A stretch of 64,000 nt of DNA from Vitreimonas flagellata. GTDB taxonomy: Bacteria > Pseudomonadota > Alphaproteobacteria > Caulobacterales > Aquidulcibacteraceae. This document shows, piece by piece, positions 20,387-38,700 of this stretch. Under the pieces are notes generated by a model, which made no database searches, was not told where the DNA came from, and saw only the letters and a list, made by a program, of their open reading frames with translations. The stretch is taken from positions 717,001 to 781,000 of the forward strand of contig NZ_SBJL01000001.1 of the NCBI RefSeq assembly GCF_004634425.1. Direction: 5' to 3'. Each line of letters opens with the position of its first letter. Position 1 is the stretch's first letter. The position numbers were made by a program, and so were the translations under genes.

Positions 20387-20390
20387 CGAG

Positions 20391-22403: not shown

Positions 22404-22531
22404 GCGGACAATCTGCGCCCGCTGCGAAAGCCGCTTCGAGTCATTGCAACCATCACAGCAAACACGCGACCGCTCATGGCCGCTGGTTCGCGAGAATCGT
22501 CACCAGGATTGGGTGAATCCACTCGTCTGGG

Positions 22532-22549
22532 CACACAACCGGAGGTGTG
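22532..22549. promoter_or_regulatory. candidate lux-type box
   Basis: An 18-bp imperfect palindrome (CACACAACC / GGAGGTGTG, 7 of 9 positions symmetric) lies 33 bases before the luxR-type start and 128 bases before the divergent traG start. Its length and position fit a TraR/LuxR-type operator. Binding is inferred. Confidence 0.4.
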
Positions 22550-22582
22550 ATAGGCTCGGAGAAGGTTGAAGCTGGAGGGCCG

Positions 22583-23314
22583 ATGCAGTCCGCGCCTTTG
22601 ATCGACGACGCCGTGCTGGATTTCGCACAAGCCTGCGAAGCCGCAGCCTCATTGCCAGAACTCGAACGCGTCTGGGACGCCCGGATGCGCGCGCTCGGCT
22701 TTGCTTACGCGGCCCTCGGCGGGCACGCCGATCCGCTGCATCCTGATCGGGCGACCTATGTCTTCTGCAATTATCCGAGAGAATGGGTCAGCCATTATTC
22801 GACCCAACGCTATTTCTTGATCGACCCCGTCTATCGGGCCGTCGAAACCGGCGCGTCGGACTTTCTCTGGCATGATCCGGACTTCTATCAGGGCCTGCCC
22901 TGGCGCCAGCGCCGCATCCTCGCGGAAGCGCGTGAGTGCGGGCTTCGCTTTGGTCGCACGCATGCACTGGCGCCAACGCTCTTTCTCGCCGCCTCTTCGT
23001 CGCTGGTCACAGATTGTGTGGATGTCGATCCGGCCGCGTACGCCACGGCCAAACTCGCCAATGTCATCACCCACCATCGTGCAGCCCTTCTGTGCGCGCC
23101 GCCGCTTGCCCCCACGCCGAAACTGTCGATCCGCGAGCGCCAATGTCTGCAATTGAGCGCGCGCGGCCGCACCGATGGTGAAATCGCGCGCGACCTCGGC
23201 ATCTCGGTCGCCACCGTCCGCCGGCATATCGAGTCCGTCAGACTTCGCTTCCGCGTCTCCAGCAGAGTGCAAGCAGCCGTCAGAGCGGTGCTGAGCGGGC
23301 AGATTGAGCCCTAG
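22583..23314 (+). CDS. LuxR-type acyl-homoserine-lactone-responsive regulator (solo)
   Basis: ATG 22583 follows GGAGG by 5 bases; 243 residues. The N-terminal domain keeps the autoinducer-binding residues of TraR/LuxR: Trp68 and Tyr72 in EWVSHYSTQRY, Asp81-Pro82 in FLIDPVYRA and Trp96 in FLWHD. The C-terminal HTH is complete (SIRERQCLQLSARGRTDGEI, then VATVRRHIESVRLRFRV). No luxI gene lies in the window, so it may answer signals made elsewhere in the cell or by neighbours. Divergence from traG and a dyad between them suggest that it controls conjugation by cell density, as TraR does for Ti plasmids. Confidence 0.85.
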   Translation: MQSAPLIDDAVLDFAQACEAAASLPELERVWDARMRALGFAYAALGGHADPLHPDRATYVFCNYPREWVSHYSTQRYFLIDPVYRAVETGASDFLWHDPDFYQGLPWRQRRILAEARECGLRFGRTHALAPTLFLAASSSLVTDCVDVDPAAYATAKLANVITHHRAALLCAPPLAPTPKLSIRERQCLQLSARGRTDGEIARDLGISVATVRRHIESVRLRFRVSSRVQAAVRAVLSGQIEP

Positions 23315-23338
23315 ACGCAGCCAAACAGATGACGGGGT

Positions 23339-23809
23339 TCAGCTGGCGCCAACACCCGCGATCGACGCCCAGACCGCCTTGTCGTCATCTCGGTCCATCA
23401 TCGCCAAGTCACCCAAGCGGAGCGCGTCGCAATAGGCGGAGAACGCCAACATCTGGTCGGCATCGATGAAACCGGGCGGGCGCCCCCATGCGCTGTAGCG
23501 CCGCCAGGCAATCAGTTTGAGTGCGACCGCGCGCCAGGAGCTTGCCTGATGCAGGGTCAGCGCCCGCACATTGGCATCGATCTTCCAATCGAGCGCTTCG
23601 GCGCGCGCGGCCAGCGCCTCGCGCCGTGCGCTCACGCCCTCACGCGGGGCCGCTTCAATGCCTGGCACACGCGCATAGGCCGCATCCGACAGACGCTGCA
23701 GCCGCAGAAATTGAACCAGAAGTTCGGCGCATCGCGCGTCATCCGAGGCGATCGTTGCGGGACCGATCACATCTGGTTCGGCTTGAATAAGGGCGCGACG
23801 CATGGTCAT
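23339..23809 (-). CDS. conserved-looking hypothetical protein of the ICE regulatory region
   Basis: This 156-residue soluble protein is helical and Ala/Arg-rich, with Trp-containing segments (ASSWRAVALKLIAWRRYSAW; DKAVWASIAGVGAS). I do not recognise the family. It is divergent from the XRE gene at 23,916 and convergent with the luxR-type gene, and shares its promoter region with the dyad at 23,872. Confidence 0.55.
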   Translation of the reverse strand: MTMRRALIQAEPDVIGPATIASDDARCAELLVQFLRLQRLSDAAYARVPGIEAAPREGVSARREALAARAEALDWKIDANVRALTLHQASSWRAVALKLIAWRRYSAWGRPPGFIDADQMLAFSAYCDALRLGDLAMMDRDDDKAVWASIAGVGAS

Positions 23810-24158: not shown

Positions 24159-24309
24159 ACGCCCGGCGCTTTGATTTCGGAATTTGGTCGACTACCGATC
24201 GCGGAGCGCTTCGGACGCAATTGCGCTGAAGCTCACAGTGGAATTGGCGCATCAATCTGGTGACGCATGGGTTTGCCTGCCCTGGCTGAGTTTCCTAGAG
24301 TGACGCCGC

Positions 24310-24642
24310 ATGGGGTCGCGTGGGGACGCGACCGTGATCTATTGGAACGACAAAGAGCGTGGCTATCCGATCGGTCTCGAAAGCGGGACCAAGGGGATCT
24401 GGATAAGCTGCACGGCCTGCAAGCACAGCGATAAATGGCTTTGGGGGCGCGTCGCGCAAACCTGGCGCACAGGCACCTACACGCGCGATCTCACCCGCTC
24501 GCTCAAATGTTCACGATGCGGCGCAAAAGAAGCCTGCGTGATGGCGTGGGCCTGGGGGCCGTTGGAAAATCCCCTCGAGGCTGACCGCCAGGACCTGGCC
24601 TCGAAGGAAATAGTGCGCCGGCGCCTACCTGAAGACGACTAA
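24310..24642 (+). CDS. hypothetical zinc-ribbon-like protein
   Basis: A 110-residue protein with two Cys pairs, CTACKHSDKWLW (about 34-45) and LKCSRCGAKEAC (about 65-76), which could form one zinc ribbon. Trp is unusually frequent. I do not know the family. It sits alone between the XRE genes; an upstream gap of 151 bases holds no other gene I can support. Confidence 0.5.
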   Translation: MGSRGDATVIYWNDKERGYPIGLESGTKGIWISCTACKHSDKWLWGRVAQTWRTGTYTRDLTRSLKCSRCGAKEACVMAWAWGPLENPLEADRQDLASKEIVRRRLPEDD

Positions 24643-24665
24643 AATCGGCGCGCAATCTCCAACGC

Positions 24666-24953
24666 TCATGCGTCGTTGGGCAAGAGATCGGTTACTTTGC
24701 ACTCCAGTGTGCGCGCAACCCGCATCAGCGTGCTTGCAGCAACGCGATTGACGCCCTTTTCGTATTTCTGAATCTGCTGGAACGTGATCCCAAGCGCCTC
24801 GGCGAGGCGCATTTGCGAAACACCGATCGCCAGACGGCGTTCGCGGATGAGCGCACCGATTTTTGCATCGACAGAGCCCGCTGTGCGCGGCCCGAGAGAT
24901 CGCGTCTTCGCTGCGGGTTTCGCCTTTGCCTGCTTCTTATTTGCTTTAGCCAC
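24666..24953 (-). CDS. XRE-family HTH regulator
   Basis: I start at GTG 24953 (95 residues); a TTG at 25010 would extend it by 19. A Lys/Ala-rich N-terminal arm (AKANKKQAKAKPAAKTRSLG) precedes a standard XRE domain (IGALIRERRLAIGVSQMRLA, EALGITFQQIQKYEKGVNRV) ending in LECKVTDLLPNDA. It is probably a repressor with a DNA-clamping arm. It is divergent from the ssb leader region. Confidence 0.75.
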   Translation of the reverse strand: MAKANKKQAKAKPAAKTRSLGPRTAGSVDAKIGALIRERRLAIGVSQMRLAEALGITFQQIQKYEKGVNRVAASTLMRVARTLECKVTDLLPNDA

Positions 24954-25198
24954 AGCGCGTTCTTCTCCGTCCCCAAGCCATTGATCTGATGCGCGCCCGG
25001 CGTGAAGCAACCCTACGCTGCAACAGAAAACCTTCGACCCAAGTCACCCCAAGTTGCGGCGGCAAGCACTTCAGGTCTTACGTCTGGAATTGGTACGTGC
25101 GCCGCAGACCGGATGCGCAACGCGGACTTCTGCCGTTTCTCCCAACCGCACGCACCCGCCGACGCCGACGGTCCTTCCCGCTTCAGTGAGCGCGCATC

Positions 25199-25349
25199 GC
25201 ATGTGGGCGGAGGCTGGCAAGGGGCAAGCCTTTGGTCGTGTCCCACGACCCCTTGCCAGCCTCCTCATGCCCACAAGCGCCCGCATCACCATCGCGGGCG
25301 AGGCCCGCAGCGCCAGCCGGAGCTCTCCGGCGCTTCGGGAGAAATCCTC
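25199..25349 (+). ncRNA. candidate structured leader RNA, copy 2 (ssb)
   Basis: The leader before ssb has an outer stem 25199-25208 with 25269-25278 (9 of 10 pairs). Its long inner stem, 25209-25224 with 25249-25264, is a perfect 16 pairs. The apical loop begins CAAGCC and contains a small GGTCGTG/CACGACC hairpin. A hairpin at 25317-25322/25325-25330 ends close to the GGGAG ribosome site 8 bases before ATG 25350. It corresponds element by element to the leader at 596-741. It may regulate ssb by controlling access to the ribosome site. Confidence 0.6.
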
Positions 25350-25691
25350 ATGTTCTGCTTCACCGCCAACGGCCGTATCGGCTCGATCAACCAATACAAG
25401 AACAACACCGTCTCGATCTCTCTCGCCGCCGATCGGCTCGTCGAAGGCCGCGATGGCCAATTCACCGCCACTGAATGGATCCGCTGCGTGTCATTCGACG
25501 CTGACCTCAACAAGCGTCTGCTGACCGACCTCGACAAAGGGCAGAGCGTGACCCTCCAAGGCCGCCTCGTTCCGCGCGTGCGCGACAAGACCGCCGACAA
25601 GAAAGTCTACGAGACCACGCTCGAGATCACGGGCTTCCAACGCGGCGAAAAGCCGAAGGCTCAGTCCGCGCGAGCCCCCGCCGAAGCTTAA
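25350..25691 (+). CDS. ssb: single-stranded DNA-binding protein
   Basis: This 113-residue protein is an SSB OB-fold: MFCFTANGRIGSINQYKNNT, ISLAADR, TATEWIRCVSFDADLNKRLL, then GQSVTLQGRLVPRVRD and YETTLEITGFQRGE. The tail is short and lacks the acidic DDDIPF-type tip of housekeeping SSB, as is common on mobile elements. It probably coats incoming single strands after conjugation. The start follows GGGAG by 8 bases, at the end of the structured leader. ardC follows 103 bases downstream. Confidence 0.85.
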   Translation: MFCFTANGRIGSINQYKNNTVSISLAADRLVEGRDGQFTATEWIRCVSFDADLNKRLLTDLDKGQSVTLQGRLVPRVRDKTADKKVYETTLEITGFQRGEKPKAQSARAPAEA

Positions 25692-25701
25692 GCGCAGCGT
25701 T

Positions 25702-25725
25702 ACGGCCGCGCACGAGCGCGGCCGT
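25702..25725 (+). terminator. hairpin between ssb and ardC
   Basis: A perfect 10-bp inverted repeat (25702-25711 with 25716-25725) encloses ACGA. The following bases (TCCACCTCCTC) are not a T-run, so it may be an RNA-stabilising or attenuating hairpin rather than a true terminator. Confidence 0.4.
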
Positions 25726-25794
25726 TCCACCTCCTCACTCTCTCAACATCGCGCGTGATCGCGAAGGCACACGCGCGCCAGCAGGACAGATCCG

Positions 25795-26763
25795 ATGACC
25801 AAGTCGAACGCTCTCAAGACGTCCACGCCGCAACGATCGGCGCACGACGCCCTCACTCACGTCACAGCCGAAATCACACGACTGCTGGAGAAAGGCGTGA
25901 TGCCCTGGCGCGCGCCGTGGGATCGCAATCGCGCTCTGGCCGCCACGCCTGGGCTGCCGCTGCGATGCAATGGCGAACCTTATCGAGGCGCCAACGTGCC
26001 GCTGCTCTGGGCAGCACAAATCGCGCGTGGCCATGCCAAGCGCACTTGGCTGACCTATCGCCAGGCGCTCGCACTTGGTGGTCAGGTCCGCAAGGGCGAG
26101 AAAGCCTGCCCTGTGGTCTATTATGGCCAGGCGACGGCCAAGCATGGCTCGGGCGATTATGCGGAAACCAGCGCCGGCAACGGCGAGACCCGCCGCTACC
26201 GCTTTCTCAAGCTCTTTCATGTTTTCAACGTGGAGCAGATCGACAAACTTCCGACCGGCTTCGGCGCCGAGATCGCGCCCAAGGCGCCTCCGCAAACGGT
26301 GCTCGATGCTTGGATTGCGCGCTCAGGCGCGAAGGTTCGAGTCGGCGGCGCCATGGCCTATTATTCGCCAGCGACCGATACGATCCACATGCCGCCACTT
26401 GAAGCCTTCGTCAGTGCTGAACAGGAGACGGCAACAAGGCTCCACGAACTCATCCACTTCACCGGCCACCCCTCCCGCCTCAATCGGCTGCAGGATTATG
26501 CCGTTGATCCGCGCGCGAGGAGTCGTGAGGAACTCACGGCCGAAATTGGCAGCGCCATGCTGGGGGCGATGATCGGCTTGCCGCCGGACCATCTGGAAGA
26601 TCACGCCGCCTATTGCGCGAGCTGGCTCAATGTCATCCGCGATGAACCGCGCGCTTTCTTGTCCGCGGGCGCCAAAGCGCAGGCGGCTATCGATTGGCTC
26701 ACAGCCAAGGCCGGCCCCCCAGAAGACGTGCCGAGCTTGTCGGACCCCGCGAGATCGCCATAA
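25795..26763 (+). CDS. ardC: ArdC-family antirestriction protein
   Basis: The 322-residue protein has the ArdC N-terminal ssDNA-binding domain (TRLLEKGVMPWRAPWDRNRA, WLTYRQALALGGQVRKGEKA) and a C-terminal zincin-like metallopeptidase domain with HELIH near 217-221 and a downstream Glu near 246 (SREELTAEIGSAMLGA). ArdC proteins protect entering conjugative DNA from restriction. Together with ssb it is likely among the first genes needed in a new recipient. It fits the presence of a restriction system on the same element. Complete in length. Confidence 0.9.
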   Translation: MTKSNALKTSTPQRSAHDALTHVTAEITRLLEKGVMPWRAPWDRNRALAATPGLPLRCNGEPYRGANVPLLWAAQIARGHAKRTWLTYRQALALGGQVRKGEKACPVVYYGQATAKHGSGDYAETSAGNGETRRYRFLKLFHVFNVEQIDKLPTGFGAEIAPKAPPQTVLDAWIARSGAKVRVGGAMAYYSPATDTIHMPPLEAFVSAEQETATRLHELIHFTGHPSRLNRLQDYAVDPRARSREELTAEIGSAMLGAMIGLPPDHLEDHAAYCASWLNVIRDEPRAFLSAGAKAQAAIDWLTAKAGPPEDVPSLSDPARSP

Positions 26764-26894
26764 GACTGAAAGGAAGCTGCTGAGCGGCGCGCCGCCGTTC
26801 GTCCTGATCCGGTATGGCAGCTCGCATTCGGTTACGCTCGCGAACGCGCGCCGTCGAATGACGCGCACTGTCGGGCGCGAACACCGACATGTTT

Positions 26895-26910
26895 GGAGCG
26901 GCCCCGCTCC
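26895..26910. terminator. possible hairpin between convergent genes
   Basis: GGAGCGG and CCGCTCC form a perfect 7-bp stem with a 2-base loop, between the ends of ardC and the convergent dynamin gene. No T-run follows, so the terminator role is tentative. The rest of the 26764-26948 gap shows nothing I recognise. Confidence 0.35.
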
Positions 26911-26948
26911 TTGAGCCGTCATTTCACAGTTCGCCAGGCAGAACGCAC

Positions 26949-29006
26949 CTAGATGCCTTCACTTACAACCAATTGATGCGACAGCTTGAAGGCGCGCGAG
27001 GCGATTTCCTGCAATTCAGCATGCAGCGCGCGCGACGCGACTTGATCGCGCTCCTTGGACTGGCGACTTCGGGAATAAAGCTCGCGGGTTTCGTGCAGCT
27101 GCTGGGTGGTGTCATTGAGCTTTGCCTCGGAGGCTTCAGACACACTCTTACGGAACGCCTCAAACGCGCCAGTCGCCGCGTCCTGGAAATGAAGCGTCAC
27201 GACATCGACGCCGAGGTCGCGCTCGATGTGCTTTCGCACCGTTTTGATCGCGTTTTCTTTGTAGTTCTGGACACGGGATTCCTGGAACAACGCGTCGCTG
27301 AGCCACCTGCCCGTGAAGATACTCGCCACGCCGACTAGGATGGCCACCGGGAAGACGAAGGCGGCGCCCAGACCAAGCGCTGCCGCACCCGCAAAGCCCA
27401 ACACTGCAGTCCCGATTGAGGCGCCCAGTCCAACGCCGGCGCCCTTCCAACCGGCGCTTTGGTAACCACTCCAAATCCCTCCAAAACCCGACCAGACAGC
27501 TACTCCGGCGAGCACACCCTCTGTCACTTTGGTCGACTTGTCTTCTGTATCAAACTGCTGAAACCGTTTGCCCACTTCACTCATGAGAGATGAAAGCTGG
27601 ACATCAAATGCGTTCAACCGAGCCGCTTCCCGGTTGATGGCGCCCTCAACCTCGCTTTGGAGCTCCATAGCAAAAGCGTCCATCACTTCCGAAGTGGTCT
27701 TCGTGACTAAGGCCTGAACTCTCTTATCCAAGGTTTTTCGGGCGTCACCCGACAGATTGTCATTGTCGATCGCCAAAGCCTGGATTGCGGCCTCCACAGC
27801 TTTCGGCAATTTGCTCATAAACAGCACACCCATATCGCCTGCGCGCTTGCGAATGACATTGCCCGCATCCACCATCGCCATGCGCTCTTGCGCCCAACGC
27901 TCGCGCGCCTTCTCAATCATCGTGGTGGATTCCGCCATCGCGCGATCGAAATCCTCGACTTCAAGGGTGAGTGCAGCCTCCCGCAAGGCCAGGGTTTCGA
28001 GAATATCACGTACGCTGGCTATGCAACGATTGAGCGGTACTTGCAGCATGATCACGCCGCGATGCTCGGTCAGAAACTTCTCCAATTGCAGCTCGAATTG
28101 AGGAAAACCACTGCGCTCCAGGCGTTGTGTATCACCCGATTTCTTGGCCTCGATAGCCTCGCGGGCGGAGAGTCCAAACACCTTCGGCGCGCCGATCTTG
28201 CGCAGATAGGTCTCATACTCATTGGAGTCCGCCCCGAACTGACGCTTCGCCCGCTCAAACACATTACGCTTGATCCGGCCTTCCACGCCCTCCAACAGCC
28301 GCTTGGCTTCATCGGGGCTGTTGAGGCGATCCAATCCATTTACGACGAAGATGACGCGCCCGAGATCCACGCTTAACAAGCGGTCCTCAAGAAACTCCCG
28401 CTCGAAATCGCTAAACGGCGATTGCGCCATTATGACCATGATAGCGGCGTCTACCTGCGGCAGCACGCCTAATGTCACTGCCGTCATCGCTTGATCCTCG
28501 TTCAGGCCGGGCGTGTCGATGACGTCGACATTGTTTTGGCAATAGGGCGAGGGGTAATAGACTGTCGCCTCCGCAAGCGTCGCTGCCACGGCCTCGGATT
28601 GCTCAGTCAATTTGGTGACGTAGCTCGGCAGGCTGTCGTACGGAATATCTTCAACACGGCCGTCCTTGTAGGTGACGGTGACGCGCTTCTCGATCGAATA
28701 GGTCACGCGATTAAGCGCCGCCGAACATGGCAAGACATCGGTTGGCAATACCGAAACACCGAGCAGCGCGTTAATGAAGGTGCTCTTGCCGCGCTTGAAT
28801 TCGCCAACTACCGCGACCGCGAATTTGTTCTTTTCGAGCCGATCGAGCACAGATGCGATCTCTCGTGCGACACCGCTCAGCCCGAGCTCCAAGGCATGTT
28901 TGCGCAATGTGCGCAGATCAGTCGACAGATCGAGCACGACGCGCTGGTAGTCGATGAACGAGCCGGAGAACGAGGGTTCGATGGGCGCGGCTTGTTGTTC
29001 GCTCAT
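26949..29006 (-). CDS. dynamin-like GTPase with hydrophobic segment (DLP-A)
   Basis: This 685-residue dynamin-family protein has G1 GEFKRGKST at 68-76, G3 DTPGLNED near 162-169 and G4-like VVNGLD near 222. Helical stalk-like regions follow. At about 500-570 there is a Gly/Ala-rich hydrophobic stretch (GLGASIGTAVLGFAGAAALG; FVFPVAILVGVASI) that could insert in membrane, then a C-terminal coiled coil. It lies 15 bases after the second dynamin gene in one operon. Tandem bacterial dynamins often act as heteropairs that remodel or repair membranes, and some protect against phage lysis. ATG 29006 is chosen; no better start is visible. Confidence 0.85.
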   Translation of the reverse strand: MSEQQAAPIEPSFSGSFIDYQRVVLDLSTDLRTLRKHALELGLSGVAREIASVLDRLEKNKFAVAVVGEFKRGKSTFINALLGVSVLPTDVLPCSAALNRVTYSIEKRVTVTYKDGRVEDIPYDSLPSYVTKLTEQSEAVAATLAEATVYYPSPYCQNNVDVIDTPGLNEDQAMTAVTLGVLPQVDAAIMVIMAQSPFSDFEREFLEDRLLSVDLGRVIFVVNGLDRLNSPDEAKRLLEGVEGRIKRNVFERAKRQFGADSNEYETYLRKIGAPKVFGLSAREAIEAKKSGDTQRLERSGFPQFELQLEKFLTEHRGVIMLQVPLNRCIASVRDILETLALREAALTLEVEDFDRAMAESTTMIEKARERWAQERMAMVDAGNVIRKRAGDMGVLFMSKLPKAVEAAIQALAIDNDNLSGDARKTLDKRVQALVTKTTSEVMDAFAMELQSEVEGAINREAARLNAFDVQLSSLMSEVGKRFQQFDTEDKSTKVTEGVLAGVAVWSGFGGIWSGYQSAGWKGAGVGLGASIGTAVLGFAGAAALGLGAAFVFPVAILVGVASIFTGRWLSDALFQESRVQNYKENAIKTVRKHIERDLGVDVVTLHFQDAATGAFEAFRKSVSEASEAKLNDTTQQLHETRELYSRSRQSKERDQVASRALHAELQEIASRAFKLSHQLVVSEGI

Positions 29007-29021
29007 AGCTAGCTAGACCTT

Positions 29022-30983
29022 TCAGAACGACGAAAACGGCCTCTCGGGCAACGCTGGCGTTGATGACGAAATCATGCTTCGCAGCGTTTCGCGCCGCCGA
29101 CTGGCGCTGACGCGCGCCGCCTCGCAAAACTTCAGCGCGACGCTGACGCGCTCGGCGCCGCGCGCTCGTGATCCATTGAGCTGCTCGCGTTGCACGCGCA
29201 GCGCCCAAATGCGTTCTTTCGTCATCGCCTCGATCCTATCGACCGCGATCTGCGCCTTTGCGGAGATGCCGCGTGCGATCTCGATGCTCGCGGTTTTGAT
29301 CCGCCCAGATAGATCGATTACGCTAAGCGTACCGCCGATCATCCCGTTGATGTGGCTTTTGTAGCCGGACCGGACCGTGGAGGCGACCTCGCTCGCCTGA
29401 TTGCGCAAAGCGGAATCGTCCTTGCTAAACATGCCCCAGATTTCGCGCACCGTGCTGCTCGTTACGATCTGCCCGAGCGCGCTGCTCAAATGTGTTTCAC
29501 CATCATAGCCGAAATCAAACCTCTCAATTGCGCTCGTAACATTGTCCAGTGAGGCGCCAATTGCCGCCGACACATCTGGGGCGGCCGGCGTAGGATCGCC
29601 CGGTGCTTCGCGTGTGAGATCTTGCGCCAACAGCCAATCAAGCCGCGCTGTCAAAGTGTTCAGCGCGAGCAGTTCTTCGCTCGTCCATTCCGTCGCACGT
29701 TTGTGGCCGGCGTTGACCACCGCTTCGAATTTTGCGGTGAGCGAAGGATGGACTTCGCGCCTGACCATTGCGTGGCGTGAGTCGGGATCGTTGATATAGG
29801 ATTCAGAGAAATCAAGGCTTGATACTTTTGAGTCTGCGATCGACCTCAACGCGCTTTGCACGGCCTCGGCTTCCGCGCCCGCCACTTCCTGAAAATGTGA
29901 CAGGCGTTTGGCGGCGTCGCTAAGCCAAGTGCGGGCATCGCGGCTCAGGCCATCCAACGCCGACTCAAGTGAAGCGAGGCGGGCTATGTCGGCCTGCTCT
30001 TGTTGTTCGATTTTGGCCTGCGCGGCGGCAGCGTGCTCGACAACGCCAGCAGCCAAGACCTCCAACGTTTCATTGGCCGCTTGCAGGCGCGCGACGCCGC
30101 TGTCGCGCACGATGAAGGTCTCCAGGGCGTCTTCAAGCGCTGCGACTCCGCTGCGCGCGAGCAGACCCGCATCCTTGTTTTGCTTGGCCAATAGAGCTTC
30201 GCGCGCAGAAATCCCATAGACGCGTGGCGTCGACTTCAGCACGGTGGCTGCCCGCTTGCCGATGCCTTCCAGCAGGCGCTGACGATCACCCTCATCGATC
30301 AGGTCAAGTTGATTGACCACGATGAAGATGCGGGTTTCATCGACGTGGTGCAGCAATTGCACCATCATATTCAGTTCGGACTGCGCCATCGGCGAGAGTG
30401 CGCTTGTCACCACAAGCGAAGCGTCGATCCTCGATAGCATGGCGACCGTGCGTTCCGTCATGGCCGCCTCATCGCCGAGGCCGGGGGTGTCCAGCAATTC
30501 AACATTGTTCAGACAGAGCCGCGTCGGGTAAGCGATGATGGCCTCGGCGATCGCCTCCGCACGGGCCGCCGACGCGTCACTCAACTTCGTGACATGGTTG
30601 GCGAGTGCTTCGATGGCGATGGTTTCGGTGCGACCATCGCGCAGTAGTAGCCGCGCATGCGGTTCGCGCCCATAGACCACGCGATTGATCGTCGCTGTCG
30701 CAGGCGCGATGTCGGCGGGCATGATCTCAGCGCCAAGCAAGGCATTCGCCAGCGTGGATTTTCCGCGCTTGAATTCGCCAACGAGTGCGACCACGAACGC
30801 GCCGCGCGCCAAATGCTCAAGCCGCTCTTCGGCCTTCTCTGCCAATTCGGTTTGATCGACAACGCGGGCATCGGCGCTCAGGCGCGATAGGTCCGCGGCG
30901 GTTCGGATCAGTTCGGCTTGAAAAGCCACATAATCCGCATGCGGCTGCGCGTCTTGAACGCGACCAGACCCGTCGTCCCCCAC
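29022..30983 (-). CDS. dynamin-like GTPase, partner (DLP-B)
   Basis: The 653-residue protein has G1 GEFKRGKST at 69-77, G3 DTPGLGDE near 164 and G4 VNQLD near 218, followed by long helical segments (AAAQAKIEQQEQADIARLAS). Unlike its neighbour it has no convincing membrane segment, which suits a heterotypic pair with one membrane partner. GTG 30983 follows GGAG by 7 bases. It is the first gene of the operon and diverges from the TIR-FGE gene by 93 bases. The two dynamins share the same P-loop but otherwise differ, so they are old paralogues rather than a fresh duplication. Confidence 0.85.
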   Translation of the reverse strand: MGDDGSGRVQDAQPHADYVAFQAELIRTAADLSRLSADARVVDQTELAEKAEERLEHLARGAFVVALVGEFKRGKSTLANALLGAEIMPADIAPATATINRVVYGREPHARLLLRDGRTETIAIEALANHVTKLSDASAARAEAIAEAIIAYPTRLCLNNVELLDTPGLGDEAAMTERTVAMLSRIDASLVVTSALSPMAQSELNMMVQLLHHVDETRIFIVVNQLDLIDEGDRQRLLEGIGKRAATVLKSTPRVYGISAREALLAKQNKDAGLLARSGVAALEDALETFIVRDSGVARLQAANETLEVLAAGVVEHAAAAQAKIEQQEQADIARLASLESALDGLSRDARTWLSDAAKRLSHFQEVAGAEAEAVQSALRSIADSKVSSLDFSESYINDPDSRHAMVRREVHPSLTAKFEAVVNAGHKRATEWTSEELLALNTLTARLDWLLAQDLTREAPGDPTPAAPDVSAAIGASLDNVTSAIERFDFGYDGETHLSSALGQIVTSSTVREIWGMFSKDDSALRNQASEVASTVRSGYKSHINGMIGGTLSVIDLSGRIKTASIEIARGISAKAQIAVDRIEAMTKERIWALRVQREQLNGSRARGAERVSVALKFCEAARVSASRRRETLRSMISSSTPALPERPFSSF

Positions 30984-31076
30984 ACTAGTTCTCCGCGCCT
31001 GTTGTTCTTGCCGCTTGCTCTAACTATAGTTGTGCACGCTGTGAGCGCAACTCGGTTCCGAGATGGGGCGGATGGA

Positions 31077-32312
31077 ATGACGACGAAAGCGGATGGAATT
31101 TCTGAGGCCACGCTTATCTTCATTTCTTATCCGCGCGTCGAGCGGGAGCATGCCGTACAAATTCGTGACGCGATTGCGCGCAAAGGCTATCGAATTTTTT
31201 TCGACACCTCCGATCTCGACGCGGGCGATAGCTTTCCCGACATTATCGACAAAGCGCTGAAGGCAAGCGCGGTCGTTGTCGGATGCTGGTCGCCCCTCGC
31301 ATTCACACGCCCATGGGTCATGAAAGAGCAATTACTGGCGCTCGACCTCGATATTTTGACGCCGGCAGCAATCAAGCCCGTAACCGGCCGCGACATTCGC
31401 GTCGACTTTCAGGGCATCGACTACGCGGATTTAACGTCCTTCGACGGCGCGGACTCGCACCCAGGCTTTGTCAAGCTCATGCGGGCGATCGAACGTAAAA
31501 TTGCCTCAAGTCGGGATGATGCGCGTCTGCGACCGGGTTCTGAGTGGCGCGATACGCCGAACGCCGAAAGCACACTTGAGACCCCGCTCATGGTCACATT
31601 GCCCACGGGCGCCTTTACAATGGGCGCTCCACCGACGGAGGCAAAGTCGGATCACGCCGAACGTCCGCAGCATCGCGTGACGTTGGCTTATGCCTTCGCC
31701 CTTTCCAAGTATCCCATCACATTTCGACAATGGGACAGCGCACGCAGCGACGGCGCGGACCTGCCGCACGCAAACGATCAAGGCTGGGGCCGCGGCGACC
31801 GTCCGGTCATCAATGTGAGCTGGAACGACGCTCAGGCCTACATTGGCTGGCTCAATCACCGATCGGGGCTAACCGGTCGCTTCGGCTATAGGCTGCCGAG
31901 TGAGGCAGAGTGGGAATACGCCTGCCGCGCAGGCACGCAGACGCCCTTTTTTTTTGGCGCGTCGCTGTCCCCTACCCAAGCGGTGTTCGACGCAAGCGTT
32001 TCCTACGGCGATGCGCGCGCCGGCGCGGCGGTGGCCCATACCCAGCCCGTGGCGGATCAACCGAGCAACGGATTCGGCCTTGCCGGCATGCACGGCAACG
32101 TGTCTGAGTGGTGTGAAGATTGCTGGAACGGCAGCTATGTTGGTGCGCCCGACAATGGCGACGCCTGGCTCAGTGGCGAAAAAATGCAACGCGTGTCGCG
32201 CGGCGGTGCGTGGAATTTTATGGGTCACGTGCTGCGCTCGGCCGCACGTGATCGTAGCCCACCCAGCACGCGCATCAACTATCGCGGGTTTCGCGTTGCT
32301 CGAACATTCTGA
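31077..32312 (+). CDS. TIR-FGE (sulfatase-modifying-factor fold) fusion protein
   Basis: ATG 31077 is preferred over an upstream frame that lacks domain sense; 411 residues. Residues 10-140 form a TIR domain (ATLIFISYPRVEREHA, GYRIFFDTSDLDAGDSF) with the likely catalytic Glu84 in PWVMKEQLLALD. Residues about 168-411 are an FGE/SUMF1 domain (MVTLPTGAFTMGAPP, YRLPSEAEWEYACRAG, GNVSEWCEDCWN, RGGAWNFMGHVLRSAARD). The Cys pair used by true formylglycine-generating enzymes is absent after RGGAW, so this part is more likely a ligand-binding C-type-lectin-like sensor. TIR domains in defence cleave NAD or make signals. Its position, divergent from the two dynamins, suggests a joint module. Confidence 0.8.
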   Translation: MTTKADGISEATLIFISYPRVEREHAVQIRDAIARKGYRIFFDTSDLDAGDSFPDIIDKALKASAVVVGCWSPLAFTRPWVMKEQLLALDLDILTPAAIKPVTGRDIRVDFQGIDYADLTSFDGADSHPGFVKLMRAIERKIASSRDDARLRPGSEWRDTPNAESTLETPLMVTLPTGAFTMGAPPTEAKSDHAERPQHRVTLAYAFALSKYPITFRQWDSARSDGADLPHANDQGWGRGDRPVINVSWNDAQAYIGWLNHRSGLTGRFGYRLPSEAEWEYACRAGTQTPFFFGASLSPTQAVFDASVSYGDARAGAAVAHTQPVADQPSNGFGLAGMHGNVSEWCEDCWNGSYVGAPDNGDAWLSGEKMQRVSRGGAWNFMGHVLRSAARDRSPPSTRINYRGFRVARTF

Positions 32313-32406
32313 GCCCCCCGCAGCAAGCTAGAAATCAAGGGGGCAAGTTTCCGCCGACGCCAAGCGGCAGGCGCTCAATTCCGTCTGGATCGCTCCTCCT
32401 CCAGTT

Positions 32407-32459
32407 TGCGCCGCGGCCCGTCGAACAAGCATATTTCTCGAATGGCGCGCTCTAAGCCG
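32407..32459. repeat. array repeat, copy G (partial)
   Basis: Plus-strand sequence GCGCCGCGG...CATATTTCTCGAATGGCGCGCTCTAAGCCG matches the left half of copies C-E and overlaps the stop codon of the DoxX-like gene (32452-32454). Confidence 0.4.
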
Positions 32460-32877
32460 TTTTTCCACCAGCACTCGTGCTCCACCAGATGAGCCAAACG
32501 AGAACCGGCTGGAACGCCAGCCGAAGCCAAAGCCCAAGCACGCCGATTGCGGGGTAACGATTGGCGTCTAGCGCCATCCCAAGATTGGCGGGGGTGACGC
32601 AAACCGTCAGCGTCATGAGCGCCCATCCCATCGGTCGGCGGAATTCTGGCCGGATCACCAAGCAAAGGGCGCCGCCGATTTCACAAACCCCAGTGAATAG
32701 CACCATGAAACGGGCAAACGGCACATAGTCCGGCACGATTGCAACGAAGGCGTTCGTAAAAAGGAAGTGGCCAAGGCCGCCCAACGCGAACCAACCGACA
32801 ATAAAGCTAAGGGCCAGCGTGCGCAAAAATGGATGATCAGGTTTGAAGGTCGCCTTTGGAAATTTCGCGTCGGCCAT
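32452..32877 (-). CDS. DoxX-like membrane protein
   Basis: ATG 32877 (MADAKFPKATFKPDH) gives 141 residues with four membrane helices: LALSFIVGWFALGGLGHFLF, FMVLFTGVCEIGGALCLVI, MGWALMTLTVCVTPANLGMA and IGVLGLWLRLAFQPVLVWLI. The motif FTGVCEIGGAL fits the DoxX/DoxX-like family. The function of such proteins is usually unclear; some act in redox homeostasis. It is one of the genes in the repeat-separated array and is followed by repeat copy G at its stop codon. Confidence 0.75.
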   Translation of the reverse strand: MADAKFPKATFKPDHPFLRTLALSFIVGWFALGGLGHFLFTNAFVAIVPDYVPFARFMVLFTGVCEIGGALCLVIRPEFRRPMGWALMTLTVCVTPANLGMALDANRYPAIGVLGLWLRLAFQPVLVWLIWWSTSAGGKTA

Positions 32878-33014
32878 CCCGACACCGTACGCCCTCACGC
32901 GCTCGCGCACAGCGCACTTGCAAACAATAGACGCTACCGGCTGCTCTGGCCCACGACCCCCACCGCGCGACACTTCATCAATGGCGTGGTCCAACCCCAT
33001 GCGGTCAGCGACCA

Positions 33015-33070
33015 ATAGCGCCGTTGGTCACATTCCTTTAGTGGCGGCCGGCCATCGCCGATACCAGACG
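33015..33070. repeat. array repeat, copy F (short)
   Basis: AGCGCCGTTGGTCACATTCC and CCATCGCCG match the ends of copies A-E, but the middle 45 bases are missing. It lies between the VOC and DoxX-like genes, just after the VOC stop codon. Confidence 0.45.
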
Positions 33071-33075
33071 CCCGA

Positions 33076-33459
33076 CTAATCGCCCTTGATTAAGCTTGAG
33101 GGCCAGCCGACGCGAACCAAGAGGCCGTCGGGGCCGGTGATGCCGACTTCATACATGCCCCATTCACGGTGCCGGAGAATGCCGCCGGGACGGATGATCA
33201 AATCATCGACACGCGCCGCGATGGCATCGACATGCGGTGTGCGAATGAAGACTCCGAAGGGGTTGTTTTCCGCAGGCACGCGCCAGGGTCCCTTGCCTGC
33301 TTGGGTCAGATGCACCTCGCAGCCCCAGCCGGTCATGATGACGTATTGATGGTCGCCACCGGTGCGCGCAAAGCCCAAGCGCTCCCAGAAGGGGATTGCG
33401 GCAAGCAACTCGTTGCTGGGCACGATAGCAAACGCGCCGACAGGCGTTGGCTCAGACAT
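33076..33459 (-). CDS. VOC-family (glyoxalase/bleomycin-resistance fold) protein
   Basis: ATG 33459 (MSEPTPVGAFAIVPSNELL) gives 127 residues. The pattern IPFWERLGFARTGG, VIMTGWGCEVHLTQ, FGVFIRTPHVDAIAARVDDL and MYEVGITGPDGLLVRVGWP is the paired beta-alpha-beta-beta-beta of the vicinal oxygen chelate superfamily. His and Glu ligands for a metal are partly present (VHL), but the substrate is unknown. It belongs to the repeat-separated array and lies between copies A and F. Confidence 0.75.
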   Translation of the reverse strand: MSEPTPVGAFAIVPSNELLAAIPFWERLGFARTGGDHQYVIMTGWGCEVHLTQAGKGPWRVPAENNPFGVFIRTPHVDAIAARVDDLIIRPGGILRHREWGMYEVGITGPDGLLVRVGWPSSLIKGD

Positions 33460-33530
33460 TCTTCGCTCCCAAGTCGCGCGCACTCGTATCTAGGCGCTTC
33501 GAGCCGTTGTCACTCGATCGCTGGAAAAGG

Positions 33531-33625
33531 GACAGCGCCAGGCCAATCGCAACCTTTCTCGAGTGACCGTCGCGCCGCAATCCTGCCGTTGGCCCCCTGC
33601 TCGTCAATTCGGCTCACGATCGCCG
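33531..33625. repeat. array repeat, copy A
   Basis: CAGGCCAATCGCAACCTTTC, GCAATCCTGCCGTTGG and CTCGTCAATTCGGCTCACGA are shared with copies B and D. A GAGGGAC/GTCCCCTC hairpin (33625-33645) follows. It separates the VOC gene from the acyltransferase. Confidence 0.6.
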
Positions 33626-33695
33626 AGGGACGCCATTGGTCCCCTCAGTGCTCTTTGTCACAGATGGGGCGGCGTCTGCACGGTAGCATTTCGGC

Positions 33696-34820
33696 ATGGA
33701 CAAAGAGCGGTTTGTCACTTTGGACGGCCTACGTGGAGTCGCGGCGTTGGCGGTGCTGTTGGGCCATGCGTTCAAGACAGACTCCGCAGAGCGCGTGAAT
33801 GAGGTGCTGCCGTTTAGCTACTTGGCGGTCGATCTTTTCTTCATGCTGAGCGGCTTCGTGATCGCGCACGCCTACGAGCACAAGCTGCGCGACGGCATGG
33901 GGCTCTGGACGTTCCTGCGCGTGCGCTTCATTCGACTAGCGCCACTGCATGTGCTCGGCACGGCGCTAGGACTCGCTCTTATTCTCTACGGCGTCTGGCG
34001 CGGGTGGCATGACTACCCAATTGCAGGCCTGCTTCTCAGCTTCGGCCTGTCAGTGTTCTTCATTCCAACACCGCCAGGGATCATTCCTCAGAACACCCTG
34101 CTCTTTCCGCTCAACGCACCGGCCTGGTCGCTGTTCTTCGAGATGGCGGCAAATATCGTTTTCGCGCTTCTCGCGCCGACACTGACAACGGCCCGGTTGG
34201 CCTCCATCGTCGCGCTCGGTGCGATTGCAATTGCCGCCATTCCGCTGACTGGAAGTGATGCATCCGGCGGCCCAATCTATGCGGGAATATTTGCGGGAAG
34301 CGCGCGCGTTGTCTTCGCCTTCTTCGCCGGCGCCCTTCTCTTCCGCCTGCATCGCTCTGGCGCGACGTCTAAGCTTCGAATGCCGGCGCTCCCGCTGCTG
34401 ATCATCTTGGGTGCGGTGCTGCTATGGCGGCCGCCGACGTGGCTCGTCGATGTGTATTTCTACGCATCTGTCTTTGTCCTGTTTCCGTTGTTGATCGCCG
34501 TCGGCGCGCAGTCTGCGTCGCGCGGCTTCACCAGCGTCATCGCCGACATGCTCGGACGAAGCTCGTACGCGGTGTACATCGTCCAAGCGCCGCTGCTGTT
34601 GTTCTTCAATCTGATTGTTATCAAGCTCTACGGCGAACCGCTTGGCGCGTTTGGCTGGCCCGCCGTTCTGGTATCTTCCGCGCTGGTCGTGGTTATCGCG
34701 CTTGCGCTTGATCGCTTCTATGACGGACCAGTTCGCGCCTTTCTCTCGAAGTTCAGCAAGCGACGCGGCCTCTTTGTGGTTAGCGGCGGCGGCGACGGAA
34801 AGTCACAACATAGTCCGTAA
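33696..34820 (+). CDS. acyltransferase 3 family membrane protein
   Basis: The 374-residue protein begins FVTLDGLRGVAALAVLLGHA, the signature with the catalytic His of acyltransferase family 3 (OafA/NodX-like), followed by DLFFMLSGFVIAHAYEHKL and RVRFIRLAPLHVLG. About ten membrane helices follow (e.g. ALPLLIILGAVLLWR; LLLFFNLIVIKLYG). Such enzymes acylate surface sugars or lipopolysaccharide, so it could change a phage receptor. It is the only plus-strand gene in the repeat array and may be a separate insertion. Full length for the family. Confidence 0.85.
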   Translation: MDKERFVTLDGLRGVAALAVLLGHAFKTDSAERVNEVLPFSYLAVDLFFMLSGFVIAHAYEHKLRDGMGLWTFLRVRFIRLAPLHVLGTALGLALILYGVWRGWHDYPIAGLLLSFGLSVFFIPTPPGIIPQNTLLFPLNAPAWSLFFEMAANIVFALLAPTLTTARLASIVALGAIAIAAIPLTGSDASGGPIYAGIFAGSARVVFAFFAGALLFRLHRSGATSKLRMPALPLLIILGAVLLWRPPTWLVDVYFYASVFVLFPLLIAVGAQSASRGFTSVIADMLGRSSYAVYIVQAPLLLFFNLIVIKLYGEPLGAFGWPAVLVSSALVVVIALALDRFYDGPVRAFLSKFSKRRGLFVVSGGGDGKSQHSP

Positions 34821-35023
34821 TATCTCCCGCAGCCGCGTCGCTCGCAGACATGCCCTCCCACCAGAAAGGCCATTGGCTGCGCATCGACTCCGCGCTCGCG
34901 CCTGCTGCGTTGAAGAAAAAGAGCATTACTTACCCTCGCCCATCTTTTTCTGGCGGTAGCGCTTCCGCCGCCATGCCATCCTTGACGGTCTCGTCAACCT
35001 CTTTCTGTCGCCGGCGGCGGACG
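34821..35023. other. 203-bp spacer, no gene recognised
   Basis: Between the acyltransferase stop and the zinc-ribbon gene stop. I see no repeat copy of the array type here; only a GCGGACGCTAGA stretch (35017-35028), shared with the end of copy C, marks the array-style gene end. Confidence 0.4.
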
Positions 35024-35305
35024 CTAGACCGACGCGCGGCGCAGGTCAGTGCTGCAATGCGGACAGCGATCGGGACTGCGCCCGGCCTTACGCGTCTCCC
35101 ACCCCGTCGTTGGCAGCACGTGCTTGCCGCACGATGCGCAGCGCGTGTCCATGTAGATGCTGAACGCAATGTAGAAGGCTATGAATAGGCCGATTACGAC
35201 CAGCCCTTGATATGGAAAGCGCTGAAGCCCGACTATAATCACGGCGACGAACAAGACACCTTGGATCGCCTTCCAAGACTCCAAACGCTTGCGAACAGAC
35301 TGCAC
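35024..35305 (-). CDS. two-helix membrane protein with C-terminal zinc ribbon
   Basis: GTG 35305 follows GGGGAGG by 7 bases and is clearly the best start; 93 residues. There are two hydrophobic segments (AIQGVLFVAVIIVGLQ; GLVVIGLFIAFYIAFSIYM), then CASCGKH and CPHCSTD, a zinc-ribbon pair. The family is unknown. It lies in the gene-repeat array; the preceding repeat copy B is directly upstream, and the stop codon is followed by CGTCCGC as in copy C. Confidence 0.65.
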   Translation of the reverse strand: MQSVRKRLESWKAIQGVLFVAVIIVGLQRFPYQGLVVIGLFIAFYIAFSIYMDTRCASCGKHVLPTTGWETRKAGRSPDRCPHCSTDLRRASV

Positions 35306-35343
35306 GTGGTGCCTCCCCGCGAGCGTTATCGCCGACTGCGCCG

Positions 35344-35460
35344 AATGTCTCAATTGGGCCAGCACCAGGCCAATCGTAATGTTTGTCGAGTGGCTTAGTC
35401 GCTCAAGTCCAGCCGTTCCCGCCCTGCCCGGCAAATCGGCTCACGATCGCCGATCGCGGA
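35344..35460. repeat. array repeat, copy B
   Basis: AATGTCTCAATTGGGCCAGC at the left and CGGCTCACGATCGCCGATCG at the right, with the shared middle TCGAGTGGC and GCTCAAGTCCAGCCGTTCCC. It lies between two minus-strand genes. Confidence 0.65.
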
Positions 35461-35470
35461 CGATGATGCT

Positions 35471-35731
35471 TCAGGTCTGCATATCAAACGTTGTCAGGAA
35501 CTCGCTTATCTCCGGGTCAGAGGCCTGCCAAGCGTTTCCGCGCTCTTCAAACATTGTCACAACCCCAAGAAGCTCGATCGGCCCTTCGCCGGAAAAGCTC
35601 TGATTCCCTTTACTGGCAGTCCAAACATCTTGCGAAGGGTGAGCGCGAATGTGGCGCTCAACTGTGTAGCCACGCGAACGAAGGACCAACCATGCTGGTG
35701 CTTCGACATTGCCTGCTGCCATGATGTGCAT
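35471..35731 (-). CDS. hypothetical small protein
   Basis: An 86-residue soluble protein (AWLVLRSRGYTVERHIRAHP, NQSFSGEGPIELLGVVTMFE, ASDPEISEFLTTF). I do not recognise it. ATG 35731 is used; ATG 35722 is possible. It has the shape of a small immunity-like or DUF protein, but this is only an impression. It is flanked by repeat copies B and C. Confidence 0.45.
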   Translation of the reverse strand: MHIMAAGNVEAPAWLVLRSRGYTVERHIRAHPSQDVWTASKGNQSFSGEGPIELLGVVTMFEERGNAWQASDPEISEFLTTFDMQT

Positions 35732-35764
35732 GGCACTGAGACTAAACGAGACGCTTACCGAAGC

Positions 35765-35882
35765 AATGTCCGCTTCGGGCCAGACGCGCGCCGTTCAACA
35801 TTTTTTCCGAATGGCTGGCGCGCTCCAAACCTGCCGATGGCGCCCTGCCCGTCAACTGGGCGCACGCTCGCCGTGAGCGGAC
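35765..35882. repeat. array repeat, copy C
   Basis: The ends are self-complementary: GTCCGCT (35768-35774) and AGCGGAC (35876-35882), seven perfect pairs. The middle (TTTTCCGAATGGC, GCGCGCTCCAAACCTGCCGA, GCCCGTCAACTGGGCGCACG) follows the family. The right end adjoins the stop codon of the next gene. Confidence 0.7.
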
Positions 35883-35883
35883 G

Positions 35884-36111
35884 CTAGAGGACCTCGCCTC
35901 GAATGGCTCTGGCGACCAAAGACGCACCAAGCACGAAAAATACGAAGGCAATGAGATACAGCGCAAACAGCGATGGCCGATAGTCGTTGCCAAAATGCTT
36001 GAGGTAAATTTCGCGGATTCTTTCTCGAAAATCGGCACGCAACGCAACAAAGCCGAACGCCAAGAGGATGCACAGAAGTCCCACAGCGGCGGTGCCGACC
36101 CGATCAAGCAT
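35884..36111 (-). CDS. small two-helix membrane protein
   Basis: ATG 36111 (MLDRVGTAAVGLLCILLAFG) gives 75 residues: an N-terminal membrane helix, a charged cytoplasmic loop (ALRADFRERIREIYLKHFGN) and a second helix (PSLFALYLIAFVFFVLGASL). Upstream codons to 36246 are repeat copy D read through, not protein. The TAG stop touches the end of copy C. Function unknown. Confidence 0.55.
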   Translation of the reverse strand: MLDRVGTAAVGLLCILLAFGFVALRADFRERIREIYLKHFGNDYRPSLFALYLIAFVFFVLGASLVARAIRGEVL

Positions 36112-36155
36112 GGCCCATCCTAACCGCAGCGAACTCAGAAGTGCAGACCACTCCT

Positions 36156-36273
36156 GTGTCTGCTCCGGGCCAAGCGACGCGCCATTGGTGAAATTTTTCG
36201 AGTGGCCGCCTCGCTCCAATCGAGCCTTTGCCGCCCTGCTCGTCAATTCGGCTCACGATCGCCGTAGAAAGTC
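36156..36273. repeat. array repeat, copy D
   Basis: Shares GCGCCATTGGTGAAATTTTT, CGAGTGGCCGCCTCGCTCCA and CTCGTCAATTCGGCTCACGA with the other copies. It sits between two minus-strand genes. Confidence 0.65.
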
Positions 36274-36318
36274 ATTCGCGGGCAAGTCCCGGTGCTAGCG
36301 GACCCTTATGCGACAAGG

Positions 36319-37626
36319 TCAGTTGGCATGAAGCGCGTATACCTGCACCACGCCACTACTTCCCCAAACAACAAGCGTTTCAGACACGGCATCGATCGCG
36401 CAATTCACATATGGCTCGTCCGCGAACAATCGAGCCGCAAATGGTCGAATGGCCCATGCACGTGCGAGAACTACTCGGTTCAACTGCCGGCCATGCGCCT
36501 GCACCTCACAATGGATAGGACCTGCCTCTTGAGCGTACCGCGTTTGGGCCTGAGCATTGTCGCCAAACCACATGTCTCTCGGGTCTAGCCACGCCGGATC
36601 CAAATATGATCGCTCGCTTCGCTGCGGCGATCGGGAAAACGCAAATGTCCGAAACCCATGGAGCTGGTTGACCGGCGCTTCGATCCCATCGCGAAATACC
36701 TGCCACTGCACGCCAACCGGAATCAGGCCCCCGCTCCTAGCGAAGGCTCCACTGACACGGATGGGCAAATCCACGTGCTCCATGAGGTCTATTCCCGTTA
36801 TCGTCCCATCCTCTTCCCACCTCACCAGCGTGTTAACGCGATACGGTGGACGTCCAGACTCGCGATCAACAGATGCAATCACCGTTGTTGAATTGCGCGC
36901 AAACATCGCCGATCTGAAGTCACGGTAGCCCGACGACATTCCTGCAAATGGCAGATTTGAGGCGTGCAATACCCGGTGCAATGTGCGGCGCTCAACATCG
37001 ATGACTACCGCAACTCGCTCGCCCTCGATGTCCGCTGTGACCACCATGAGGTTGCCCACATCAGAGACATTCATTCCGCGAGCAGGGTGAAATTGCGCGT
37101 CCTGAAGAGAGGTCGTCGCTCCATCATTGGCAACGATGAGCTGCGAACTCGGTGCCCAATCCTTTGAAACGAAGATGGGCAACTGAAGCCCTTGTGCCGT
37201 TTGGGTCGCTCGCCCTTCGCAGAGGAAAACAACACTACCTCTTGGACCATCGACATGCATTGTGGGCGGGGCAAACCCGCGCGGCTCCGGACAGCGCGGA
37301 TATTCGAGCGATGGGGCGCTGGCACCGTCGCTCTCACCGTTGAGTAAATCTTGCACGTGGAGTAGTCGGAGCGCTCCGCTACAGCGCACGACCAAGGACG
37401 CTCCATCATTGGCGATTGGATTGTGGGGCGCCGGGCTGCAGCCACTTAGCGTAAACCTGCCGACCGGGCGTGCGACTTCTGAAAACGCCGTTTCCAAGGC
37501 GTCAACGGCTTCATGTTGCTCAGCGACAGAATCTGAAACCGGCGCTGCAAAAGTGGCGAACGCGAGCATAACGACAGCGACCATGCCTTGGCGAACCAAT
37601 CCCAACGCGCCAGTCCATTGCCACAT
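36319..37626 (-). CDS. hypothetical secreted protein
   Basis: I favour ATG 37626 (MWQWTGALGLVRQGMVAVVM), giving 435 residues with a signal peptide cut near residue 30 (AFATFAAPVSDS). The rest is beta-rich with repeated short motifs (FLCEGRATQTAQGLQLPIFV, SRSPQRSERSYLDPAWLDPR) and ends CAIDAVSETLVVWGSSGVVQ. It could be a propeller-like periplasmic or exported protein, but no family is recognised. Four scattered Cys could pair. It is the largest gene in the repeat array. Confidence 0.55.
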   Translation of the reverse strand: MWQWTGALGLVRQGMVAVVMLAFATFAAPVSDSVAEQHEAVDALETAFSEVARPVGRFTLSGCSPAPHNPIANDGASLVVRCSGALRLLHVQDLLNGESDGASAPSLEYPRCPEPRGFAPPTMHVDGPRGSVVFLCEGRATQTAQGLQLPIFVSKDWAPSSQLIVANDGATTSLQDAQFHPARGMNVSDVGNLMVVTADIEGERVAVVIDVERRTLHRVLHASNLPFAGMSSGYRDFRSAMFARNSTTVIASVDRESGRPPYRVNTLVRWEEDGTITGIDLMEHVDLPIRVSGAFARSGGLIPVGVQWQVFRDGIEAPVNQLHGFRTFAFSRSPQRSERSYLDPAWLDPRDMWFGDNAQAQTRYAQEAGPIHCEVQAHGRQLNRVVLARAWAIRPFAARLFADEPYVNCAIDAVSETLVVWGSSGVVQVYALHAN

Positions 37627-37675
37627 TTCGATTATCCGCCGTGCACTGGCGATCACTATACGCAACGAATTTCCA

Positions 37676-37783: not shown

Positions 37784-37799
37784 TCTAGCTTCGACGCAA

Positions 37800-38510: not shown

Positions 38511-38700
38511 CCGAATTCCTGTTTCAAAGTGGCTGAACAATGCGGTTCAGGCAGCACAATCGGGCGTACGTCTGACAAAGTCGAGTGTCTCGAAAGGGCC
38601 ACGGACGGTCTCCCCGACATATTCCTACCGATGACCGCAATTGAGCGCATCCCTGCCACGCTCTGGCAACAGCGTGAGGTGACGGGCAATATGGATCGAC

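Follow-up and report, generated by a model that had tools for sequence, protein, structure and literature searches.

Two dynamin-like GTPase genes and a divergent TIR-FGE gene as candidate defence cargo of an integrative conjugative element in Vitreimonas flagellata

We analysed a stretch of 64,000 nucleotides from the genome of Vitreimonas flagellata (contig NZ_SBJL01000001.1, positions 717,001 to 781,000; hereafter the window), in which two genes for dynamin-like GTPases, dynA and dynB, stand divergent from a gene for a TIR-FGE fusion, a TIR domain followed by a domain of formylglycine-generating enzyme (FGE) type. The locus is cargo of an integrative conjugative element (ICE), as revealed by attachment repeats, empty sites in relatives and conjugation genes. 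We give an even chance to the reading that this cargo serves in defence and consists of two adjacent, probably separate units, the dynamin pair and TIR-FGE. A role in phage defence is thus predicted for both units, and their mutual independence is suggested because dynamins and TIR-FGE were not found to recur together. Dynamins and TIR proteins are both known in anti-phage defence (PMC11811056, PMC8844932, PMC11984713); their three-gene combination is not recognised in the literature searched, that is, the best-ranked papers, most subscription papers lying outside the scope.

The element is framed by a 47-bp exact direct repeat of the 3' part of tRNA-Asp, of which one copy is located in the window (Table 1) and the other at G000:C1:694050-694096 (G000 being the Vitreimonas flagellata genome). 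The two att repeats enclose about 65.7 kb, and the window lies inside the element up to about 42.8 kb. In 10 of 30 same-genus loci (9 genomes), the left chromosomal flank was in collinear order and no more than about 200 bp away from the tRNA, the arrangement to be expected where the site is empty; the remaining loci showed no such flank in the examined stretch, or the flank was otherwise arranged. Between the flank and the left repeat there is about 1.2 kb of extra DNA (G000:C1 ~692.8-694.05 kb), absent or much shorter at the empty sites of the relatives, which is perhaps the remnant of an earlier insertion.

A congeneric genome, G182, contains the same conjugation backbone. Besides the backbone itself (Table 1), window 24264-26720 was matched at 88.7% identity and 38596-43026 at 90.7%, with two further short matches at 6232-6381 and 11221-11496. 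Within the 80 kb of G182 examined, the corresponding slot is filled by some 14.9 kb of different DNA, in which genes for a transposase and a pentapeptide-repeat protein occur. Because the backbone is the same and the slot DNA differs, dynB, dynA and TIR-FGE are exchangeable cargo between the ArdC-like gene and the TraF and relaxase genes. No second att copy was found in the examined 80 kb, and the left end of the G182 element was not located. Searches of plasmid DNA with the element gave short matches only. The gene abutting tRNA-Asp was assigned as integrase from its position, because its Pfam match was sub-threshold; the genome search with the Phage_integrase family gave no match on this contig. 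A LuxR-type autoinducer-binding regulator (window 22547-23314) adjoins the conjugation genes on the opposite strand and may suggest quorum control of transfer.

Table 1. Features of the dynamin and TIR-FGE locus and of the surrounding element, in window positions
Feature	Position	Strand	Remark
Conjugation backbone	11488-23340		Trb-type type IV secretion genes, coupling protein TraG; 83.9% to G182
ArdC-like antirestriction protein	25795-26763	plus	left edge of cargo slot
Cargo slot	26721-38595		dynB, dynA, TIR-FGE, acyltransferase, other genes; no G182 blastn match (E 1e-20)
dynB	26949-29006	minus	685 aa, BDLP-type dynamin-like GTPase, second-transcribed operon gene
dynA	29022-30983	minus	653 aa, partner dynamin-like GTPase, first operon gene
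Divergent intergenic region	30984-31076		93 bp, common to dynA and TIR-FGE
TIR-FGE fusion	31077-32312	plus	411 aa from ATG 31077; full open reading frame 30918-32312
TraF-type conjugative signal peptidase	38701-39216	plus	68 bits, cut-off 100; first backbone gene right of slot
RlxS-like relaxase	39529-40731	plus	191 bits, under cut-off 850
Probable integrase abutting tRNA-Asp	41517-42836	plus	inferred from position; sub-threshold Phage_integrase E 0.063
Attachment site	42778-42824		47-bp tRNA-Asp repeat; empty sites in relatives

The dynamin genes form, as the first-pass annotation had described, an operon of two distinct tandem genes. Both open reading frames were present with a spacing of 15 bp, and both products matched the Pfam family Dynamin_N far beyond chance (2.1e-26 and 5.7e-25). 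The P-loop GEFKRGKS was found at residues 68 and 69 of the two proteins, and the dynamin motifs DTPG and NxxD at 164 and 165 and at 223 and 224, respectively. Because they are only 31% identical over 503 aligned positions, dynA and dynB are distinct paralogues. The further claim that one dynamin carries a hydrophobic segment was confirmed for dynB and refined in that dynB is transcribed after dynA; the hydrophobic maximum lies at residues 546-564 (19-residue mean 2.41), and a weaker hydrophobic window starts from residue 174 inside the GTPase domain. The hydrophobicity of dynA peaked at 1.22, with no strong hydrophobic segment.

Through a profile made from dynB and two relatives, the top match in the PDB was Nostoc BDLP1 (2j68; profile positions 38-665, E 1.1e-47), with the Campylobacter DLP pair and mitofusins ranking next; the match to BDLP1 spans dynB almost from end to end. 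When dynA was combined with the first dynamin of a close relative locus (L012, see below) into a second profile, BDLP1 was matched again (positions 49-366), as were mitofusins and both Campylobacter proteins. Of the features that bear on a helical trunk with a membrane-inserting paddle, dynB has this long alignment and the hydrophobic segment, and dynA has no such segment. The PADLOC models LeoA and LeoBC of the Eleos system matched both dynamins at 47-69 bits (E 4e-13 to 1.2e-19), and the NCBIfam model LeoA/HP0731 gave 19.9 and 26.4 bits, far under its cut-off of 325. Judging from these matches, we take dynA-dynB to act probably as the known dynamin pairs of bacteria do, with membership of Eleos a possibility. 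Bacterial dynamins mostly come as operon pairs (PMC6104087), and Nostoc BDLP1 and Campylobacter DLP1/DLP2 (5owv) share with dynA-dynB the profile matches and an operon with two dynamin genes. However, the identity to these is low, and dynA-dynB have a TIR gene as neighbour and are carried by a mobile element. Eleos, a dynamin-like defence system (PMC11811056), likewise comprises two dynamin-like proteins, but its models matched modestly or remained under the cut-off. Bacillus DynA slows phage lysis (PMC8844932).

The gene standing divergent at a distance of 93 bp was also as first described. Its product matched TIR_2 (1.8e-17) and FGE-sulfatase (8.4e-51) of Pfam, again far beyond chance, and it most plausibly starts at ATG 31077. 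TIR domains of NADase effectors carry the glutamate of a W-x-x-x-E motif, and Glu84 of TIR-FGE is kept within WVMKE. No sigma-70-like site was found in the divergent gap 30984-31076 by a promoter scan; the promoter-like sites counted in all (2) were close to the shuffled mean (1.3), and terminator-like sites numbered 10 against 6.3. Codon usage gave no useful separation of TIR-FGE from dynA/dynB.

Among solved structures, the one closest to the FGE domain was PvdO (5hha, E 5.7e-39), a pyoverdine maturation enzyme named dihydropyoverdine dehydrogenase in NCBIfam; unlike in PvdO, the domain here follows a TIR domain. In human FGE the catalytic cysteine pair sits in the C-terminal GGS loop. No cysteine was present in the stretch aligned to this loop, the only Cys residues of TIR-FGE being at 70, 283, 346 and 349; as judged by the alignment, the FGE domain is without the catalytic cysteines of formylglycine-generating enzyme. 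Domains of this type (FGS), placed C-terminal to effector domains, were proposed to be lectin-like and to sense or neutralise invaders (PMC7159879, PMC8195603). The same layout, a C-terminal FGE domain with an effector before it, is found in the STAND-FGS systems (with TIR partners) and the vWA ternary systems described there. Unlike these systems, the present locus has no diversity-generating reverse transcriptase nearby. We rejected a diversity-generating retroelement as the sole RVT_1 match of the genome lies at C1:52061, about 0.7 Mb off; a template repeat was not searched for. The match (L003, G000:C1:52061-52687) belongs to a 561-aa reverse transcriptase open reading frame with a TIR-like stretch at 373-461.

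Among known TIR proteins on ICEs, SpbK of ICEBs1 is an NADase that works by abortive infection (PMC11984713). TIR-FGE resembles SpbK in its carriage by an ICE and in the proposed NAD cleavage; it differs in that its other part is an FGE domain, and the two are likened by description, not by sequence. The curated TIR families of Thoeris were not reached (ThcB4 39.5 bits at a cut-off of 220; ThsB1 15.9 bits). In its own genome TIR-FGE had 13 matches including itself, of which 10 of the other 12 hit the TIR part and 2 the FGE part, so TIR genes are common in Vitreimonas flagellata. Two adjacent chromosomal TIR-domain genes were observed at G000:C1:1404063-1405486 (L006/L010). A plasmid search with TIR-FGE gave 131 records, one of which, from Anabaena, covered at least 80% of the query; at this locus (L027) no TIR was found by the own-genome TIR profile. 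A same-class genome contains a 713-aa TIR-FGE (L171:267-2405) with hydrophobic stretches between the domains, as seen by eye, and no dynamin in 14 kb.

In the favoured reading, two separate defence units would act as follows. The hydrophobic segment of dynB would keep this protein at the membrane; dynA, without such a segment, would pair with it as a hetero-oligomer, which may tether, cluster at or reseal the inner membrane upon phage perturbation. In TIR-FGE, the putatively dead FGE domain may bind an invader or damage ligand as a sensor; the TIR domains would then come together, cleave NAD and kill or arrest the cell. The element also carries AbiEi/AbiEii and genes for a patatin, for an MT-A70 methyltransferase and its neighbouring BglII-type endonuclease, for a DGQHR protein and for a protein with ATPase and WD40 parts, and the presence of other defence genes supports, without proving, a defence role for the dynamins and TIR-FGE. 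The defence role proposed in the first-pass annotation is therefore plausible in view of the exchangeable ICE cargo, the other defence genes, the known anti-phage dynamins and TIRs and the weak LeoA/LeoBC matches; the single module of three genes that it had proposed remained unsupported, as follows.

To look for recurrence, profiles of TIR (9 own-genome sequences), FGE (44), dynamin (7) and M48 (2) were scanned against related loci. TIR or FGE was found near none of 16 other dynamin loci. At least two nearby dynamin genes were present in 5 of the 16 (L012, L025, L058, L082 and L090), three of which had helped to build the dynamin profile; M48 was present in 2 of the 16, both being the source of the M48 profile. 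In the other direction, a dynamin was found near none of 117 FGE loci: the 78 viral loci, taken from the 80 top-ranking of 161 matches, had none, and nor had the 39 genomic loci, whose flanks were at most 1.5 kb (29 of the 43 non-own places of one search and 10 of 14 of another). The 39 genomic loci included one TIR-FGE fusion (L046) and two more with a nearby TIR gene (L032, L037); in a wider view, neither these three nor the Anabaena plasmid locus had a dynamin. A conserved three-gene set, for which the earlier reading had suggested a search of genomes, thus did not recur in the dynamin or FGE loci scanned. No description of a dynamin pair combined with either TIR-FGE or M48 was recognised in the best-ranked papers, and dynamins are not mentioned in the main text of the FGS-system papers PMC7159879 and PMC8195603.

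Several observations weigh against the reading as two separate defence units. With sequences of a single genome as its source, the TIR profile may miss distant TIRs, and the FGE test is little informative on TIR-FGE because the flanks were at most 1.5 kb and only one fusion was among the 39 loci. The contigs of L012 and L058 stop just 5' of the first dynamin gene, where a TIR-FGE gene could sit, and L082 has only 0.8 kb 5' of its first dynamin gene. The 93-bp divergent region could mean co-regulation of dynA and TIR-FGE. As to the defence role, the LeoA/LeoBC scores are modest, and the genes in the G182 slot (7 and one edge gene, by Pfam) did not resemble defence genes. Finally, dynA scored 196 bits against the dynB of L012, above the 191 bits against its positional partner there; because the scores do not separate, dynA was matched to the first L012 dynamin by its place in the operon and by its lack of a strong hydrophobic segment.

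Some of these points would fit one three-gene system, in which TIR-FGE would deplete NAD once licensed by the dynamin pair, the sensor of membrane perturbation. The divergent layout with its common region and the placing of all three genes in one cargo slot would agree with it, the contig ends of L012 and L058 leave room for it, and GTPase switches, FGS domains and TIR effectors are found in other conflict systems (PMC8195603). However, none of the 16 dynamin loci, the viral and genomic FGE loci or the four wider views contained the combination, and what recurs next to the dynamins in L012 and L058, the closest relatives, is an M48-type gene; we consider such a system possible, if unlikely.

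Relatives of the pair were rare. At E 1e-30, dynB had no match outside its own genome in 398 genomes from the order or in 385 from the class, two draws that share a few genomes. The L012 genome was the only one hit by a profile that combined dynB with its relative from L012, both among 369 genomes of that genome's class (E 1e-40) and among 40 of its order (E 1e-25). When 84,980 species were scanned with a single protein, a scan that detects close relatives only, one locus was confirmed, L012, on a contig of a Competibacteraceae metagenome-assembled genome. Another dynB relative is carried by L058, a phage-labelled human gut scaffold. With a broader profile, 12 of 299 genomes of the phylum were hit at E 1e-15 (own included), mostly by single distant dynamins. 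Scans of viral contigs for dynamins confirmed no relative, and plasmid searches gave partial matches only (3, 3, 3 and 4 records), none over 80% of the query.

In L012 (L012:1-4986), a first dynamin gene with its 5' end missing is followed by dynB and an M48 peptidase gene; in L058 (L058:175-4984), dynB is followed by an M48-like gene, a second dynamin and an opposite-strand gene that is integrase-like by eye. The dynB of the window is 46% identical to its counterpart in L012 and 33% to that in L058, and dynA is 32% identical to the first L012 dynamin, upstream of dynB, over 476 aligned positions (191 bits). In the window, L012 and L058 alike, a strong hydrophobic segment is present in dynB only and not in the other dynamin. 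The M48-type proteins of L012 and L058 share 25% identity over 301 positions (E 2e-24). Only the L012 protein reached the Pfam M48 model; that of L058 has an altered HExxH and no Pfam match. No M48 gene was found in the window (best E 0.20).

Dynamin genes were also observed in other settings. The Lysinibacillus capsici plasmid locus L025:6942-13608 contains three consecutive dynamin genes near an annotated fexA resistance gene, and the cyanobacterial plasmid locus L026:4550-9899 has a dynamin gene 3' of cas1-cas2 and a RAMP-type gene.

A further explanation is that the dynamins work for the ICE or for the cell envelope, for example for membrane stability in conjugation or stress, and that TIR-FGE is an unrelated defence gene. 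The dynamins do lie inside a conjugative element, and bacterial DynA also takes part in membrane surveillance against antibiotics (PMC8844932). But G182 possesses the same conjugation backbone with no dynB match at E 1e-30, so the element apparently manages without the dynamins, and we regard this explanation as unlikely.

The two closest relatives would also allow dynB/dynA to be a mobile membrane-sensing core with exchangeable partners, M48-type in the Competibacteraceae genome and the gut scaffold and TIR-FGE here. The dynamin complex would then be the trigger and the partner, M48 or TIR-FGE, the executioner. The pairing of an M48 peptidase with a dynamin recalls the mitochondrial protease OMA1 and the dynamin OPA1, and the M48 version would parallel OMA1 acting with OPA1. 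We hold this arrangement to be quite improbable. If it were true that the dynamin pair gates a TIR protein or a protease, membrane-remodelling GTPases would be direct triggers of bacterial suicide, a link from dynamins to suicide that was not found in the best-ranked papers. Even as ordinary cargo, the locus shows that a rare dynamin pair is carried, together with other defence genes, by a conjugative element, and it is a small gene set that is testable in laboratory strains.

Decayed or silent cargo with no present function would agree with the rarity of the dynamin family, with one other genome in the species-wide scan for close relatives, as selection is not judgeable at such rarity. But the three reading frames are intact and the P-loop, switch and TIR motifs are kept, and we hold this reading to be very improbable.

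Further genes were observed toward the left side of the window. A BglII-type restriction endonuclease gene and an adjoining MT-A70 methyltransferase gene lie inside the element at 1622-2960. A DGQHR-domain gene at 3048-5968 overlaps another gene that matches nothing in Pfam or NCBIfam, and the gene at 6538-11088 encodes 1516 aa that comprise WD40 repeats and an AAA_16 ATPase domain.

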